DNA of 42,189 nucleotides, from IMG/VR virus record IMGVR_UViG_3300035001_000009, positions 1 through 42,189 of that record, one strand, 5' to 3'. Under the pieces are notes generated by a model. It was not told where the DNA came from. It made no database searches and worked only from the letters and a program-made list of their open reading frames with translations. Below are positions 657 to 42,189 of the stretch, piece by piece. Both the position numbers and the translations under genes were made by a program. Position 1 is the first letter of the stretch; each line of letters begins with the position of its first letter. The DNA is from a virus.

Positions 657-971
657 ATGGCATCACGAGGACTCTCACCCGACGTTCGGCTCAGCGTCCG
701 CCTCGACGCGATCTGCTCCCGCAACCGTTACACCACCGATCCCGCGCCCGTCATCGCCGAACTGCTCGCCACCGCCGGCGACCGGCACCACATCCTCACC
801 GAGTCTGTCGGCACCTGGGTCGGCTACTTCGAGGACGATTACACCCGCATCCTGTGCACTGCACTGCGGGACCTTCCCGGCCTCGAGCCATGGATCGCGG
901 TCGGGCAGGAGAGACGGTCTATGCCAGCGCCGAGCACTCTCGGGTACACGCGCCCACCTGGAGTCCGCTGA
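657..971 (+). CDS. hypothetical protein
   Basis: 104 aa soluble protein, no membrane segment, no recognised domain. The start is supported by GAGAAAGGA 7-8 bases upstream. The frame is followed within 11 bases by a strong hairpin terminator, so it is probably the last gene of a two-gene unit with the gene at 311. Function unknown. Confidence 0.6.
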   Translation: MASRGLSPDVRLSVRLDAICSRNRYTTDPAPVIAELLATAGDRHHILTESVGTWVGYFEDDYTRILCTALRDLPGLEPWIAVGQERRSMPAPSTLGYTRPPGVR

Positions 972-1015: not shown

Positions 1016-1198
1016 ATGATTTCGATCATGATGCAGCAGCTTGTCGACTGGGTGCGGTCGTTCTATGCGGAGCCGACTGTCTGCGGCACCTGCGGACGTG
1101 ACCTGTCCGACGTCGAGCCATGGGGTGCGATCGGTGCCCCAGGTCGTTACTGCTCCGAGGTATGCGCCGACGAGGGGACCTCCCACGGCGGCTGGTGA
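1016..1198 (+). CDS. small zinc-ribbon-like protein
   Basis: 60 aa. The Cys pattern CGTC (about residues 23-26) and YCSEVC (about 45-50) is that of a small zinc-binding knuckle pair. The ATG at 1016 touches the 3' arm of the preceding hairpin, whose GTGGGGG would be the only nearby ribosome-binding sequence; ATGs at 1028 and 1031 are alternatives. No function can be assigned. Similar small zinc-binding proteins recur across this genome. Confidence 0.5.
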   Translation: MISIMMQQLVDWVRSFYAEPTVCGTCGRDLSDVEPWGAIGAPGRYCSEVCADEGTSHGGW

Positions 1199-1212: not shown

Positions 1213-1218
1213 TATACT
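1213..1218 (+). promoter_or_regulatory. possible -10 element for the polymerase gene
   Basis: TATACT matches 5 of 6 bases of the sigma-70 type -10 box. It would start transcription near 1225, just before GTG at 1229. No good -35 box is seen 17 bases upstream. It lies after the previous gene's stop and downstream of a terminator, where a new promoter would be needed. Confidence 0.4.
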
Positions 1219-1228
1219 CGCAGGGTGA

Positions 1229-2572
1229 GTGAGACGTCGATGCCCAGGTTCAGCCGTGCCTGAACTACTCCTCTTCGTCTTCGCCCTCGTCGGACTCTAT
1301 GCGATCACCGCTGGTGCGCGATTCGGCCACCTGTCCGTGATCAGCCTGTTCGTCTACGCGCAGGCGATGATGGCCGCTGGCACGCTTCCGGCGCTCGACC
1401 CTGCGCAACCCGCCGACGAGATGCATGGCACGCTGATCATGCTGACCTTCAGCACCCTCGTCGTTGTCGCGTTCGTTGCTTCTTTCGTGAATCGCGAGCG
1501 CACGCGGAAGAACTACGCCCCGGAAGTTGACTACGCGATCCCCACCAAATCGGTTGCGTTCTGGATCATCCTTGCGCTCGCGGTCAGCGCCGGCTACTTC
1601 GCCAGCATCGGATACATCGCCTTCTTCGAGTCTCTGCAGTCGATCGCGGGGGACACGAACGAAGACCTCGCAGGGCTGCGCCTGGAGTCCTATGCGGGCA
1701 GCCGCTATTTCTTCCCCGGGTACGTGAACCAGTTCAAGAACTCGCTGCTCCCTGCCCTGACAATCGCGGCGATCGTTTCCGCGTACCACTTCCGCAAGAC
1801 GGGTCGCATGGTGCTCGCGCTCATCTTGATCCCCGCGACGCTCGTGTTCCTCCTCGGCACGGGCCAGCGTGCAGCGTTCGTTCTCGCCCTCGCCCTTGCC
1901 GTCGTGTCGGCGTACCTGATCGCACCGAAGAACTTCAAGAAGTACGCACTCCGCGTCGGGCTGCTCGGCGTCGCCCTGTTCTTCCTCACCACCATCGCTG
2001 GCGGTCGAGCGGCCGATGACCTCCGCGCCGCCGCCGGGTTCGGACAGCAGATCGGCATCCTTTTCGAACAGCTCGCGTTCCGCCTCTTCGGCAGCAACCA
2101 GCTGAGCTCGGTGGTCGGCTTCCAGTACGTCTACGAGCAGCAGATTCCTGCCGGCAGCGAATGGTGGCAGGGCATCGTTGGACTGCTCCCCGGTCAGGCG
2201 GGAAGTGACCTGTCGAACCGGATCTTCCAGGTGCTCTACGGCTCCACGCGAGGCACCTCGCCCGTGTCCCTGTGGGGATCGGCCTACCACAACTTCGGTT
2301 TGCCCGGAGCGATCGTGCTCGCCGCCTTGCTCGCCATTATCTTCTGCCGCATCGCGACCAAGATCAACACCACACAGCACACGAACCTGATCCAGATCGT
2401 CGGCATGGCCGGGGTCACCGTTGTCCTTGGCACCTGGATCGCGGACGGTCCCACGTCCATCATCAACACAGGGGTCGTGATGTACATGGTCATCTGGTGG
2501 TGGGGCTCCCGCCTCGAGAAGAAGAAACGCCCCGTGAGCAGGCGCGCGTCGGTCACTAGGATAAACGCATGA
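1229..2572 (+). CDS. Wzy-like polysaccharide repeat-unit polymerase
   Basis: 447 aa integral membrane protein with about 10-12 hydrophobic segments, a long periplasm-facing-type loop around residues 260-345 and a basic C-terminus. This is the architecture of O-antigen or oligosaccharide repeat-unit polymerases, which join lipid-linked sugar repeats at the outer face of the membrane. Start uncertain: GTG 1229 lies about 4 bases after a predicted transcription start; GTG 1256 (MPELLLF) gives a cleaner N-terminus and overlaps the stop of a 7-codon frame starting at 1240, so it could be translationally coupled. The gene is co-transcribed with the membrane protein at 2569 and ends at a strong terminator. 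In phage D3 of Pseudomonas a phage wzy gene changes the O-antigen of lysogens; a similar role is inferred here. The family assignment rests on topology, not on catalytic motifs. Confidence 0.7.
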   Translation: MRRRCPGSAVPELLLFVFALVGLYAITAGARFGHLSVISLFVYAQAMMAAGTLPALDPAQPADEMHGTLIMLTFSTLVVVAFVASFVNRERTRKNYAPEVDYAIPTKSVAFWIILALAVSAGYFASIGYIAFFESLQSIAGDTNEDLAGLRLESYAGSRYFFPGYVNQFKNSLLPALTIAAIVSAYHFRKTGRMVLALILIPATLVFLLGTGQRAAFVLALALAVVSAYLIAPKNFKKYALRVGLLGVALFFLTTIAGGRAADDLRAAAGFGQQIGILFEQLAFRLFGSNQLSSVVGFQYVYEQQIPAGSEWWQGIVGLLPGQAGSDLSNRIFQVLYGSTRGTSPVSLWGSAYHNFGLPGAIVLAALLAIIFCRIATKINTTQHTNLIQIVGMAGVTVVLGTWIADGPTSIINTGVVMYMVIWWWGSRLEKKKRPVSRRASVTRINA

Positions 2573-2784
2573 CCACTACCGTGTTGCGATTCCTCGGGCT
2601 CGGCCTGTTTGCCGTCTGGGGCGTCCTCGCGTGCGTCCACATCTTTCTGACAGACATCGATGCCGCCCAAGCCGTCGCGTTTCAGGATGTGCTGCCCCTC
2701 GCCTTCGCGAGCTGCATCCTCGGCGTACTGCTAATCGCGCTTGCGAGCGCCATCGACTACCGGGCAAAACGCGCCGAGCGGTAG
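2569..2784 (+). CDS. small two-helix membrane protein
   Basis: 71 aa with two membrane helices (about residues 5-27 and 38-61) and a basic tail RAKRAER. Its ATG overlaps the polymerase stop (ATGA), so the two are translated together. It may be a partner or regulator of the polymerase. Phage D3 pairs its polymerase with a small hydrophobic inhibitor of the host enzyme; that parallel is inference only. Confidence 0.65.
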   Translation: MTTTVLRFLGLGLFAVWGVLACVHIFLTDIDAAQAVAFQDVLPLAFASCILGVLLIALASAIDYRAKRAER

Positions 2785-2804
2785 AACCACTCTGGAACGA
2801 CGAA

Positions 2805-2839
2805 AGGACCCCCACTCTCAGTGTGAGAGTGGGGGTCCT
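2805..2839. terminator. strong bidirectional terminator between convergent operons
   Basis: Perfect 16 bp arms (2805-2820 and 2824-2839) around a 3-base loop, core GGACCCCCACTCTCA. It separates the plus-strand conversion unit from the minus-strand late operon, whose last gene stops at 2849, and can serve both. The outer part is nearly identical to the hairpin at 982-1015. Confidence 0.9.
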
Positions 2840-2848
2840 CGTTTGCAT

Positions 2849-4198
2849 CTAATAGCGCCGCCGCACGACCTCGCTGACGGGCAGGACGGTCATGTACTTC
2901 AACGCGAGGTAGTCGATGACGGCCTGGAAGTCTGCCGTTGCCCAGTGGGTTGCCGCAGATGGTGTCGTCACGATCTGGTGGAAGCAGATGATCAGCCAGG
3001 TGCCTTCCGCGCGGCACCTGTCGATCGCCGCCGTCACGGACGCGACTGTGGTCGTGTTGGTGATGTACAGCGATCGGAGCTTCGACGGCACCGACGGGCG
3101 GATCGCCTCTTGGGTCGTCCCCGAGGTCGTGCGCGCCGTCGCGAAGAAGCTGTCGATGATCCGCGCCTGCGCCGGCGTGTACCGGCCCATCGGGAAGGCG
3201 AGGTGATCGCTGCCCCGGAACCCGTTTGCCGTCAACCATCCGATGCTCTTCCGACACTCGGCATCCAGCTGCGTCGGGGTGAGGACGTCGAACCCGGTGG
3301 CATGGGCATCCAGAGAGGAGGCGTGCGCCGCAACATCCCACCCCGCGTTCTGAAGCTGTCGCAGTTGCGTCAGCGTCATGAACGAGGAGGACGAACCAAT
3401 CGCGTCACAGATCGTGTATGCCGTGCCCGCGTACCCCTTCGCCGTCATGATCGGCTCTGCGACCGTGGCGTGATTCACCCAGGAGTCGTCGAACGTCAGC
3501 GACACGACCCCACCGTGAGCCTGAGGCACGAGGCTGATGCCGCCAAGGTCAACCGTTCCAGAGGATCCAGCGTTCGAGTCCGTCTGAAGCCGCAGCGTCG
3601 TGAGCGCCGCGCGCGATGGGGCGCCTGTCACCACGGCATCCGCGAAGTTCAGGATGACCGGTGTCCAGTCGCCCGTCTTGACGAACTTCGAAGCTTCGTC
3701 GTCGGGCCGGGACTGGATGGTCCACTCGAAGAACGCCGTCATGCCCGTGTTCCCCGCGAAGAACTTGAGCGTGTGCGCGGCGTGCATGTTGAGACGCACC
3801 CAGACTCGGAATGCTCTCTGAGTCAGATCGAGCGCGAGGCCCGCCTTCTGGATGTACCCCACTGGGCTGCCGACCGCTGTCGTGAAACGGAGGAAGTGCT
3901 GACTCAGCGGCCCGCCAAGCTCCTGCAGCACGAACGAGGACGTGCTCGTGTTCGCCCAGCCGTGACCAACCGCGGGCACGAACACGAAGGAGGAGTCCGG
4001 TTCGACGAGAGGCCGCGGGCCCTCCACGCGCGCCGCCACGCGCGCAACCGCGAGCGACGTCTCCGACGCGGGCGTTTCGACGTTGATGGCGATCGCGGAG
4101 TCGGTCGGGACGCCGTTCACGCCAGGCGCACCGGGGACGCCTTGCTCGCCCTGGAAGCCGCGGGGCCCCTTGATGTTGGCGATCGGTGTCCGGATCAT
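2849..4198 (-). CDS. tail protein with collagen-like start and NodB polysaccharide deacetylase domain
   Basis: 449 aa. Residues 11-30 are Gly-X-Y collagen-like triplets; 35-225 look like a beta-rich carbohydrate-binding or jelly-roll region; 228-449 form a NodB carbohydrate esterase. Visible motifs: TFDD (235-238, catalytic base and metal Asp), a His pair in HASSLDAH (292-299, metal ligands), FPMGRY (335-340) and FHQI (406-409). The family removes N- or O-acetyl groups from surface glycans. Last gene of the late operon, next to the other tail-fibre gene, so it is probably a receptor-binding or glycan-modifying tail protein. The start follows the upstream stop by 2 bases. The His motif differs from the usual H-S/T-x-x-x-H spacing, so activity should not be assumed. 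Confidence 0.85.
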   Translation of the reverse strand: MIRTPIANIKGPRGFQGEQGVPGAPGVNGVPTDSAIAINVETPASETSLAVARVAARVEGPRPLVEPDSSFVFVPAVGHGWANTSTSSFVLQELGGPLSQHFLRFTTAVGSPVGYIQKAGLALDLTQRAFRVWVRLNMHAAHTLKFFAGNTGMTAFFEWTIQSRPDDEASKFVKTGDWTPVILNFADAVVTGAPSRAALTTLRLQTDSNAGSSGTVDLGGISLVPQAHGGVVSLTFDDSWVNHATVAEPIMTAKGYAGTAYTICDAIGSSSSFMTLTQLRQLQNAGWDVAAHASSLDAHATGFDVLTPTQLDAECRKSIGWLTANGFRGSDHLAFPMGRYTPAQARIIDSFFATARTTSGTTQEAIRPSVPSKLRSLYITNTTTVASVTAAIDRCRAEGTWLIICFHQIVTTPSAATHWATADFQAVIDYLALKYMTVLPVSEVVRRRY

Positions 4199-4674: not shown

Positions 4675-5186
4675 CAGTCGCCCTTGATCTCGATCTGCCC
4701 GGAGACGCTGGTCGGGCTGGCCACACGGATCTGGCCGTTCTCCACGATGTGCGTGGCCTGGTCGCGCCAGGTACCGTCCGCGCCCTGCGCCATGATGACA
4801 ACCTTCTGCTGCTGACCGCTGGTGAAGATCGCGACCGCGGAGGAGAACATCGTGAGGGCGAGAGAGATCCCGGTGACGATTTGGGTGTTCACGGCGTCGT
4901 CGTACAGTCCGAGGAGGACGAGCGACGGCGAGACGACAGTGGCGAGGGTGTAGATCGTCGCGCGGACGATCGCCCAGCCCTGGGTGGCCCAGTCCGCTAC
5001 GCGCACGTTGACGAGGTTGAGCAGCGATGCGACCGCGCCGACAACGGCGCCAGCGATGATGAGCAGCTGCTCCCACGTGCCAGCGGTGCCGTAGCCGAGC
5101 ATGATCGCGAGCGTGGCGAGAGCGGCCAGGAATGCCTGGATCAGCTGTCGACGCTCGGGCGTGAGGAAACGGGCGAGTGCGTTCAT
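4674..5186 (-). CDS. holin-like membrane protein
   Basis: 170 aa with four predicted membrane helices (about residues 16-33, 41-59, 73-96, 103-122) and a soluble C-terminal tail of about 45 residues. Size, topology and position in the block with the endolysin fit a holin or holin-associated protein. ATGA overlap with the upstream gene. The C-terminal extension (GQIRVASPTSVSGQIEIKG) is unusual for a simple holin and may bind a partner. Confidence 0.65.
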   Translation of the reverse strand: MNALARFLTPERRQLIQAFLAALATLAIMLGYGTAGTWEQLLIIAGAVVGAVASLLNLVNVRVADWATQGWAIVRATIYTLATVVSPSLVLLGLYDDAVNTQIVTGISLALTMFSSAVAIFTSGQQQKVVIMAQGADGTWRDQATHIVENGQIRVASPTSVSGQIEIKGD

Positions 5187-5800
5187 GATGCGGGTTCTCC
5201 TTCGGGAGGATCAGGGATGGGGTCAGGTTTCGGTTCAGGGGTGATGACGATGCGGCACGGGCCGGGTACGTCGCGGATGGTGCCGTCGGTCATGACGAAC
5301 TGCCAGGTGCCGTCTTCGAGGCAGGTGATGGTGGCGACGCCGACGCCTGGAGCGCCGGGGTCACCCGGATCGCCCTTGTCGCCTTGATCGCCTTTGTCGC
5401 CCTGCTCGCCCTTCGCGCCCGCGGTACCGGGGTCTCCCGAGTCGCCCTTGTCACCCTTGTCGGCTGTGCAGGGGGGGCCGGAGGCGAAGCATGCGCGGAT
5501 GCCATCCATCACCTGTGCCGCGGAAGCGGGAGGCCCCTGCGGGCCGCGTTCGCCGTCCTTGCCGTCCTTCCCGTTGGCGGGGACGAGAGGGCTGACCTCG
5601 GCCGGTTCTTCGCCGTCAGGTTCGACGCCCTCATCGAGCAGCTGCTCGTAGAGTTCCTGCGCGTTCGCCTGGGAAGCGGCGAGTTCATCGCGCTGCGTCT
5701 GCGCGGTGACGGCGAGCCATACGACGCCAGCGAGCAGCGCGATGACTGAGATGCCGACCACGGCGAAGGTGGCGATGCGCCAGAGTCGTCCGTCCTTCAT
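5183..5800 (-). CDS. membrane-anchored collagen-like protein
   Basis: 205 aa. One N-terminal membrane helix (about 8-32), a short coiled-coil (about 33-57), an acidic stretch, two blocks of Gly-X-Y triplets (about 75-92 and 115-150, for example GDKGDSGDPG), and a C-terminal domain with Cys residues (CLEDGTW...CRIV) ending in a Pro-rich tail. The helix-first layout implies N-terminal anchoring in the host membrane with a trimeric collagen rod outside, not a virion fibre. It lies between two holin-like genes and overlaps both by 4 bases, so it may belong to the lysis cassette, for example as a spacer across the cell wall. The start at 5800 is chosen for the hydrophobic N-terminus; a longer frame to 5875 looks non-coding. 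Confidence 0.7.
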   Translation of the reverse strand: MKDGRLWRIATFAVVGISVIALLAGVVWLAVTAQTQRDELAASQANAQELYEQLLDEGVEPDGEEPAEVSPLVPANGKDGKDGERGPQGPPASAAQVMDGIRACFASGPPCTADKGDKGDSGDPGTAGAKGEQGDKGDQGDKGDPGDPGAPGVGVATITCLEDGTWQFVMTDGTIRDVPGPCRIVITPEPKPDPIPDPPEGEPAS

Positions 5801-40299: not shown

Positions 40300-40784
40300 T
40301 GTCCCCGGCGGGGGAGAGAGTGAGCAGACTGACTTGGAGGGAGCCAGACTTGCGCGAACTGCTAGCCCACGCGGCACGCATGGGGATCTCCGTGCACGTC
40401 GCACACCTTCCGGCCCCATACCGCGGCTGGTTCGATATCGAGCGTTCACGGGCCGTCTACGACTTCGACCTCACCCCGATCGAGCAGCGCTGCGTCCTCG
40501 CCCATGAACTCGGCCACGCACACCACGGGCACGAGTGCGAAGACAACCCGGACCACGAGCGCCTCGCCGACATCTACGCCGCGTACCTCCTCATCCACCC
40601 CGAGGACTACGCCCGCGCCGAGCAGATGAGCCACGACACCGCGCAGATCGCCGACGACCTCGACGTGACCCCGGAACTCATCGACACTTACCAGCGGCAC
40701 TGCCTCACCCGGCTCCGCGGGATCTCGTACGCCACCCCTCGCATGGGCCTCGGCCAATGGCGCTACAGGAGCGCATATGCGTAA
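40299..40784 (+). CDS. immA: ImmA/IrrE-type metallopeptidase
   Basis: 161 aa. Zinc protease motif HELGH (69-73) with a following acidic ligand region ECEDNPDHERLADIYAAYLL (79-98). In ICEBs1 the homologous ImmA cleaves the partner repressor ImmR. Translation is coupled to the repressor (TAATG); GTG 40320, with GGGGGAGAGA before it, is an alternative start. It is the likely inducer of this prophage. Confidence 0.85.
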   Translation: MSPAGERVSRLTWREPDLRELLAHAARMGISVHVAHLPAPYRGWFDIERSRAVYDFDLTPIEQRCVLAHELGHAHHGHECEDNPDHERLADIYAAYLLIHPEDYARAEQMSHDTAQIADDLDVTPELIDTYQRHCLTRLRGISYATPRMGLGQWRYRSAYA

Positions 40785-42189
40785 CATCAGAGCGCTCACG
40801 GACACCCCGCCGCGCGCCATCATCTACCTCCGCCAGTCCGTGCACCGCGAGGAATCGATCAGCCTCGAACTGCAGGAGATTGCCTGTCGCGACTACTGCG
40901 ACCGTGCCGGTTACGTCGTCGTCGGCGTCGAAGCCGACCCTGGGATCTCCGGTCGCACTTGGAACCGTCCCGCCGTGCAACGGACGATGGCCGCGCTCGA
41001 GGGCAAGGACGCCGACGTCGTCGTCCTCTGGAAGTGGTCCCGCCTCTCCCGCTCACGAAAGGACTGGGCGCTCGCGATCGACCGGGCAGACATCGCTGGC
41101 GGGAAGATCGAGTCCGCGACCGAGCCGATCGACACGGCGACGGCGTCCGGGCGATTCGCGCGCGGCGTGATGACCGAATACGCCGCGTTCCAGTCGGAGC
41201 AGATCGGCGAGCAGTGGGAGGAAGTCCGGCAGCGTCGCCTCAAGCTCGGGCTGCCCGCGTCCGGGCGCCTGCCGTTCGGGTGGGAGTGGCACGAGGGCGG
41301 GATCCGCGCGCATGCCGAGCATGCTCCGCTGGTCGTCGAGATGTACCGCCGCTACCTCTCCGGTGACGGGTCCGCTGCGATCGCGCAGTGGCTGAACCTC
41401 CGAGGCGTCCCGGCGCCTAACGGTGGCCTCTGGCGGCGCGCACGGCCGCTGACCGTGATGGACTCGCCCATCCACGCCGGGCTGATCCCGTACCGCGAGA
41501 CCACCTACCCCGGCCAGCACGAGCCCATCATCGACGCCGACACCTGGGAGCAGTACCGCCGGGAGCGTGAGCAGCGGCGCGAGACCGGCGCAAAGCCACG
41601 CAGCTACGCCCACCTGCTGTCGAACCTGATGATCTGCGCCTGCGGGAACCGCATGCACGGGAAGGGCAGCGTCACCGGCGGGAAGCTCTACCGCGGCTAC
41701 ATCTGCGGTGAGCGACTGAATGGGCATGACGGCCGCGCCTACGTCTCAGCCCTCACCGTCGAACCGCTCGTCACCGACTGGCTGATGACGTTCGACCCCG
41801 AGGTCGACGCCAGCGTCGACACAAGCTCGCAGCGCGCACGCCTCGACGCCGTCGTCCGCGAGCAGAACGCACTCGAGGTCGAACTCGTCACCCTGACCCG
41901 CCAGCACACTCGCGGCATCATCCCCGAGGCCGCGTACGTGCGCGCCTCGTCGGACATCGAGAGCGAGCTCGCGCGGCTGCGCGCCGACGAGCGGAAGCTC
42001 ACCAGCACCAGCCGCGCGGCACCGAGTGGGGCGCAGATCGCTACGCTGCGGGGGAAGTGGCCCGCCGGCACCGTGAGTGAGCAGAACCGCGCGCTGAGGC
42101 AGGTCGTCGCTTCGATCCGCGCGCGGGAAGACGGTCAGAGCTTCACGCTAAACACCACGTGGGGGAGTTCGTCTTTCCTGTCTCGATGA
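40777..42189 (+). CDS. int: large serine integrase
   Basis: 470 aa. Resolvase domain (13-150): YLRQS with catalytic Ser21, QEIACRDYCDRAGY, KWSRLSRSRKDW (active-site arginines). Recombinase domain (about 165-275; GRLPFGWEWHEGG, then LNLRGVPAPNGG). Zinc ribbon with MICACGNRMHGKG and YICGERLNGHDGRAY, where the last ligand seems to be His rather than Cys. Coiled-coil after residue 350. Good CAGGAG before ATG 40777, overlapping immA by 8 bases, so repressor, immA and int form one operon. The stop ends the window; attP is not included. Confidence 0.93.
   Translation: MRNIRALTDTPPRAIIYLRQSVHREESISLELQEIACRDYCDRAGYVVVGVEADPGISGRTWNRPAVQRTMAALEGKDADVVVLWKWSRLSRSRKDWALAIDRADIAGGKIESATEPIDTATASGRFARGVMTEYAAFQSEQIGEQWEEVRQRRLKLGLPASGRLPFGWEWHEGGIRAHAEHAPLVVEMYRRYLSGDGSAAIAQWLNLRGVPAPNGGLWRRARPLTVMDSPIHAGLIPYRETTYPGQHEPIIDADTWEQYRREREQRRETGAKPRSYAHLLSNLMICACGNRMHGKGSVTGGKLYRGYICGERLNGHDGRAYVSALTVEPLVTDWLMTFDPEVDASVDTSSQRARLDAVVREQNALEVELVTLTRQHTRGIIPEAAYVRASSDIESELARLRADERKLTSTSRAAPSGAQIATLRGKWPAGTVSEQNRALRQVVASIRAREDGQSFTLNTTWGSSSFLSR

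Follow-up and report, generated by a model that had tools for sequence, protein, structure and literature searches.

Why would a temperate phage carry a gene for building a surface glycan directly opposite a tail protein that ends in a polysaccharide deacetylase domain? The question is raised by an IMG/VR virus record of 42,189 bases, the whole of which is referred to here as the window, in which a Wzy-type oligosaccharide repeat unit polymerase gene lies on the plus strand and converges on the last gene of the minus-strand late operon. The features on which the argument draws are as follows.

657-971, plus strand: small phage-conserved ‘anchor’ gene, with homologues in phages, on the att side of an accessory site
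977-1017: terminator-like hairpin 1, which bounds the insert on the left (-22.7/-27 kcal/mol, z -4.8/-5.3)
1016-1198, plus strand: 60-residue Cys-containing open reading frame, without relatives among the compared loci
1213-1218, plus strand: -10-like sequence TATACT
1256-2572, plus strand: Wzy-type oligosaccharide repeat unit polymerase, 438 residues (TIGR04370); a longer start at 1229 is possible
2569-2784, plus strand: 71-residue membrane protein with two predicted helices, overlapping the end of the polymerase gene by 4 bases (ATGA)
2801-2841: terminator-like hairpin 2, which separates the two convergent genes and bounds the insert on the right (-35.7/-35.5 kcal/mol, z -6.3 on the plus and -7.4 on the minus strand)
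2849-4198, minus strand: tail protein with a short collagen-like N-terminus and a C-terminal NodB/CE4 polysaccharide deacetylase domain; its gene closes the late operon
40777-42189, plus strand: serine integrase (phrog_95, 8.1e-94) at the right end, adjoining the anchor gene in a circular relative (G014 synteny)

The polymerase gene and its phage

The window is a temperate siphophage of actinobacteria, with a host among the soil actinobacteria. Its temperate nature, as originally predicted, is evident from the serine integrase and the flanking phage genes, and its gene content is otherwise that of a standard siphophage, with terminase, portal, capsid, tape measure, tail and holin-like genes on the minus strand. 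Beside the holin-like gene, positions 5183-5800 encode a collagen-like phage protein whose N-terminus resembles a membrane anchor. The anchor gene has homologues in Microbacterium phage Footloose (gp29, 75.5%), in the relatives G007, G010 and G014, and in 20 viral contigs. In G014 the integrase is directly followed by this homologue, and the window is therefore cut between the integrase and its own left end. Because the anchor gene lies to its left and the late operon to its right, the polymerase gene is inside the phage. Contamination of the contig end with host DNA was considered and ruled out, since the gene at 657-971, which lies beyond the polymerase, is phage-conserved beside the integrase.

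The original prediction of a Wzy-like polymerase holds in a profile search, where the protein scores 55.8 bits against TIGR04370 (curated cut-off 40, positions 46-374 of 396), but its match to the Pfam family O-ag_pol_Wzy is weak (16.7 bits, below the cut-off of 26.6). The frame is open from 1229 to 2572, with the GTG at 1256 favoured as the start by the N-termini of homologues, and it shows the codon-position GC pattern typical of a coding gene. The product is a multi-pass protein, with nine hydropathy peaks in a crude scan and a model that is nearly all helix, and it retains 33 of the 34 residues that are invariant in ten chromosomal homologues. Structure comparison, proposed together with the prediction, gave a divided result. 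A transporter fold is without support, but the AlphaFold model (pLDDT 83.8, pTM 0.85) has no significant Foldseek match in PDB or BFVD (best PDB E 0.2), so that the structure neither proves nor refutes a polymerase; the top PDB rows are transporters, which at E 0.2 and a TM of about 0.14 are noise. From its sequence, we conclude that 1256-2572 is a real Wzy repeat-unit polymerase gene, with a predicted polymerizing activity.

The closest relatives of the polymerase are found in Microbacterium (64% identity), Leucobacter (54%), Microcella (42%), Mumia (40%) and Micromonospora (35%), followed by distant phyla. These five (64-35%) belong to actinobacterial glycan clusters of the Wzx/Wzy type on the chromosome (L002-L006), in the company of glycosyltransferases, sugar-nucleotide enzymes and UDP-glucose dehydrogenase. 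A Polysacc_synt_3/MOP flippase is recognised by profile in the clusters L002 and L006, and a flippase-like neighbour in L003 is without a profile match. The best models for the cluster sugar enzymes are FnlA (L003, below the equivalog cut-off), a WbcJ/FnlB-like enzyme (L004, below cut-off) and the WecB epimerase (above cut-off), suggesting that the repeat unit may contain an L-FucNAc-like sugar.

The predicted coupling of the polymerase to a small membrane protein is likewise present, in the form of the ATGA overlap with the 71-residue protein. No homologue of this protein was found in the phages, chromosomal clusters or related loci searched, and it is a candidate inhibitor or partner of the polymerase. 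The original prediction had also given the cassette its own promoter-like -10. The hexamer TATACT is there, but it has no matching -35 and a promoter scan gives nothing above chance, and the promoter claim is for these reasons weak. A transcript starting from TATACT would begin at about 1225, on a GTG. Leaderless mRNAs that start at the initiation codon are a feature of actinobacteria. Positions 1225-1263 form a 12-codon leaderless-type open reading frame (GTG 1225), the stop codon of which runs into the probable start of the polymerase gene (GTG 1256), and translational coupling of this frame to the polymerase is possible.

The tail deacetylase and the accessory site

NodB-type tail deacetylases are common in actinophages. 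The tail protein of the window, predicted to end in such a domain, matches Pfam Polysacc_deac_1 above its cut-off (E 1.9e-8, 34.7 bits, cut-off 23.1), in addition to weak phrog tail-fibre matches, and its CE4 residues are intact: D237/D238 (TFDD), H292, H299, P336/G338 (PxG) and the distal His H407. The spacing between H292 and H299 is three residues wider than standard, a trait common to the phage homologues. The domain and motif residues are also found in the annotated tail deacetylases of Gordonia phage LittleMunchkin (gp20) and Arthrobacter phage Gorpy (gp36), which are 26-28% identical to the window protein and, unlike it, have no adjoining polymerase in the stretches viewed. Curtobacterium prophages are also predicted to encode tail deacetylases (PMC9862828).

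The polymerase cassette and the tail gene were said to converge across one terminator. They do converge on a strong hairpin, but this hairpin was not listed by a T-run-based terminator scan, and it is called terminator-like because its U-tract is weak. The 1.8-kb insert of the window is flanked by two GACCCCCAC-type hairpins (at 977 and 2801), compared with one in the sister phages in which the site is empty (L098 of G014, L090 and L094), where the anchor gene is followed by a single hairpin of the GACCCCCAC type, or a close variant, and by the late operon. The sequence family of hairpin 1 recurs at the same junction in sister phages. A CGAAAGACCCCCACCC-type hairpin recurs at gene junctions of the accessory site, in the window at 977-1017 and 2801-2841 and in L087, L090, L091, L092, L094 and L098; it is a possible recombination point for cassette exchange.

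With the 657-971 gene as marker, the site was collected from the 20 viral contigs and Footloose. Other envelope-modifying enzymes fill the equivalent site in about ten related actinophages, a list that documents recurrence and not exclusivity. The contents discussed here, including those of two Arthrobacter phages, are as follows.

Footloose: gp28, SGNH, facing the gp27 esterase
G007 and G010: secreted SGNH protein facing an SGNH tail protein
L096 and L097: SGNH hydrolases
L101 and G008: OafA-like acyltransferases, with beta-helix-like tail proteins opposite
L091, 5521-6969: AlgX-like SGNH acetyltransferase-type protein, convergent with the tail genes
L092, 924-1805, late strand: CAP12/TIR-domain protein (Pfam PF10137, E 2e-27)
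Arthrobacter phage MrSmee, interval between late genes and integrase, late strand: gp26, annotated O-acetyltransferase
Arthrobacter phage Faja, L141:10314-11399, opposite to the late genes: gp34, OafA-like acyltransferase (Acyl_transf_3, E 3e-28)
Arthrobacter phage Faja, L141:11467-12771, opposite to the late genes: gp35, Wzy_C-like polymerase candidate, annotated hypothetical (E 4e-6, 27.0 bits, below the gathering cut-off of 31.7)

The TIR protein indicates that the site also carries defence genes. Several anchored sites have no insert or encode small proteins lacking an assigned function, and the site is thus an accessory site and not exclusively a glycan one. In G017 (51132-53711, L145) an Acyl_transf_3 protein follows the tail genes on the late strand, its long frame suggesting fusion with a second domain.

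Faja (MH834612), a cultured phage of Arthrobacter globiformis, was found via a weak structural match of the polymerase model (BFVD, probability 0.63, E 0.1). Its gp34 and gp35 genes converge on the late genes, which end in the gp32 esterase. As in the window, the polymerase candidate lies between the last late gene and the integrase on the opposite strand; unlike in the window, it belongs to the Wzy_C family, at a score below the gathering cut-off, and is accompanied by an Acyl_transf_3 protein. The neighbouring gp33 is a 70-residue, Cys-containing, soluble-looking protein. The Atf-like enzyme of Faja is noted in PMC10400925, the consulted passages of which do not mention the polymerase. A further weak Wzy_C match, in G765, was dropped on account of an in-frame stop and a location away from the site.

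Proposed role and alternative explanations

With the polymerase, an infected cell can probably alter its surface. In the mechanism that we propose, a glycan-conversion cassette would have entered the accessory site that separates the att-side gene from the last of the late genes. The phage Wzy, residing in the cell membrane of the lysogen, would take lipid-linked repeat units made by a Wzx/Wzy-type cluster of the host and join them with a linkage of its own, in competition with the host polymerase or in its stead; the 71-residue protein would probably restrain the host polymerase or aid that of the phage. The altered polymer would be a poorer substrate or receptor for NodB-tailed phages, making the lysogen harder to superinfect. 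Comparative sequence anatomy gives good support to lysogenic glycan conversion as the role of the site, because the same site in related phages holds different envelope-modifying enzymes, and the orientation of the cassette, on the plus strand against a minus-strand late operon, is as originally described. For the polymerase itself, we favour with reasonable confidence the view that its exchange in the lysogen converts the surface glycan, presuming expression in the lysogen and a new linkage. Blocking of reinfection by the altered glycan is plausible; that the conversion is aimed specifically at NodB-tailed relatives is a more tentative proposal, to which we give somewhat less than even weight.

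The main rival is that the cassette is a moron of general benefit to the host, for example in biofilm formation, desiccation or defence against other phages, and that the tail deacetylase adjoins it only because the site ends the late operon. Many relatives do end their late genes with a glycan-active or beta-helix tail protein whatever fills the site, and empty sites also adjoin tail genes. Against this, several phages have a tail esterase opposite an esterase or acyltransferase, which hints at matched chemistry, and published prophage polymerases have been linked to superinfection resistance (PMC4815439). On balance we regard a purely general benefit as unlikely, though it deserves to be taken seriously.

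A recently captured bacterial passenger, non-expressed and without a role in phage life, would explain the narrow distribution of the gene. No polymerase homologue was detected in the phage collection or viral contigs by tblastn (E up to 10) or a profile-derived scan, and the gene is absent from all 25 of the related viral records searched. It is also rare in Microbacterium, with a close homologue in only 1 of 346 genomes and any TIGR04370 match in 10 of 149, and its GC content (62.9%) is slightly under that of the other phage genes tested. The rarity in Microbacterium also counts against the favoured reading, which needs a host able to make a fitting repeat unit. Prophages located via TerL in Microbacteriaceae genomes have diverged left arms and are uninformative here. 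However, the frame is intact, the active-site residues are conserved, and the differences from the nearest homologue at the DNA level are mostly synonymous (pS 0.78, a saturated value, and pN 0.26), which points to purifying selection; together with the hairpin borders of the cassette and the recurrence of envelope enzymes at the site, this makes a mere passenger improbable. The alternative that the protein is a transporter or some other multi-pass membrane protein and no polymerase, to which the noise-level structural matches might lend some colour, is very hard to reconcile with the TIGR04370 score and with relatives co-located with flippase and sugar-nucleotide genes.

Returning to glycan conversion, the sites may be related more broadly: actinophages may share a conversion site opposite a tail glycan enzyme, stocked with matching envelope modifiers that include at least two unrelated Wzy-type polymerases, amounting to serotype conversion in Gram-positive hosts, with the 71-residue protein as a hitherto undescribed inhibitor acting on the host polymerase. 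We advance this combined picture cautiously, as one that could well fail in part. If true, it would establish phage-encoded serotype conversion in Gram-positive hosts, in a field where little is known of actinobacteriophage host recognition and lysogen surface change. A phage-borne Wzy would offer direct access to the receptor glycan, as loss of one gene should alter polymer and adsorption together, and the shared site provides a list of comparable cassettes, one of them in a cultured phage (Faja), which makes the idea testable now.

Comparison with known conversion systems

The novelty claimed for the polymerase stands in part. A literature search with only minor coverage of subscription journals and preprints found no described Wzy in an actinobacterial or Gram-positive phage, but envelope modification by an actinobacterial prophage was already known, and the idea of a Wzy paired with a tail enzyme had already been put forward. 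The Mycobacterium abscessus prophage O-acetyltransferase MAB_1725c acetylates glycopeptidolipid (PMC10400925); like the window Wzy it is an actinobacterial prophage envelope modifier, but it is not a polymerase. Acinetobacter prophages encoding a tail glycan enzyme and a Wzy have been proposed to gain protection from their relatives (PMC13228068).

Wzy-based conversion is known in the Gram-negative phages D3 and epsilon15 (PMC4815439) and in Acinetobacter prophages (PMC9241936, PMC13228068). The serotype-converting unit of D3 consists of Iap, Wzy-beta and an O-acetylase, and is associated with superinfection resistance (PMC4815439). As in the window, a temperate phage supplies its own repeat-unit polymerase, with a small membrane peptide in the unit; unlike in the window, the target in D3 and epsilon15 is the Gram-negative LPS O antigen and the Wzy family is different, and no counterpart of the D3 O-acetylase was found in the window insert. 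The D3 inhibitor peptide and the 71-residue protein are alike only as small membrane proteins in a polymerase unit. The Acinetobacter prophage Wzy alters how capsule units are linked, and the host Wzy seems to be suppressed by it (PMC9241936, PMC13228068). The Wzy1Ph and Wzy2Ph phages of Acinetobacter baumannii share with the window the combination of a prophage Wzy and a tail glycan enzyme, but they act on a Gram-negative capsule, Wzy1Ph is of the EpsG family, and in place of the NodB deacetylase they have a tailspike depolymerase. Relative to D3, epsilon15 and the Acinetobacter prophages, the window thus has its own host phylum and envelope, its own Wzy family, its own class of tail enzyme and an orphan small protein.
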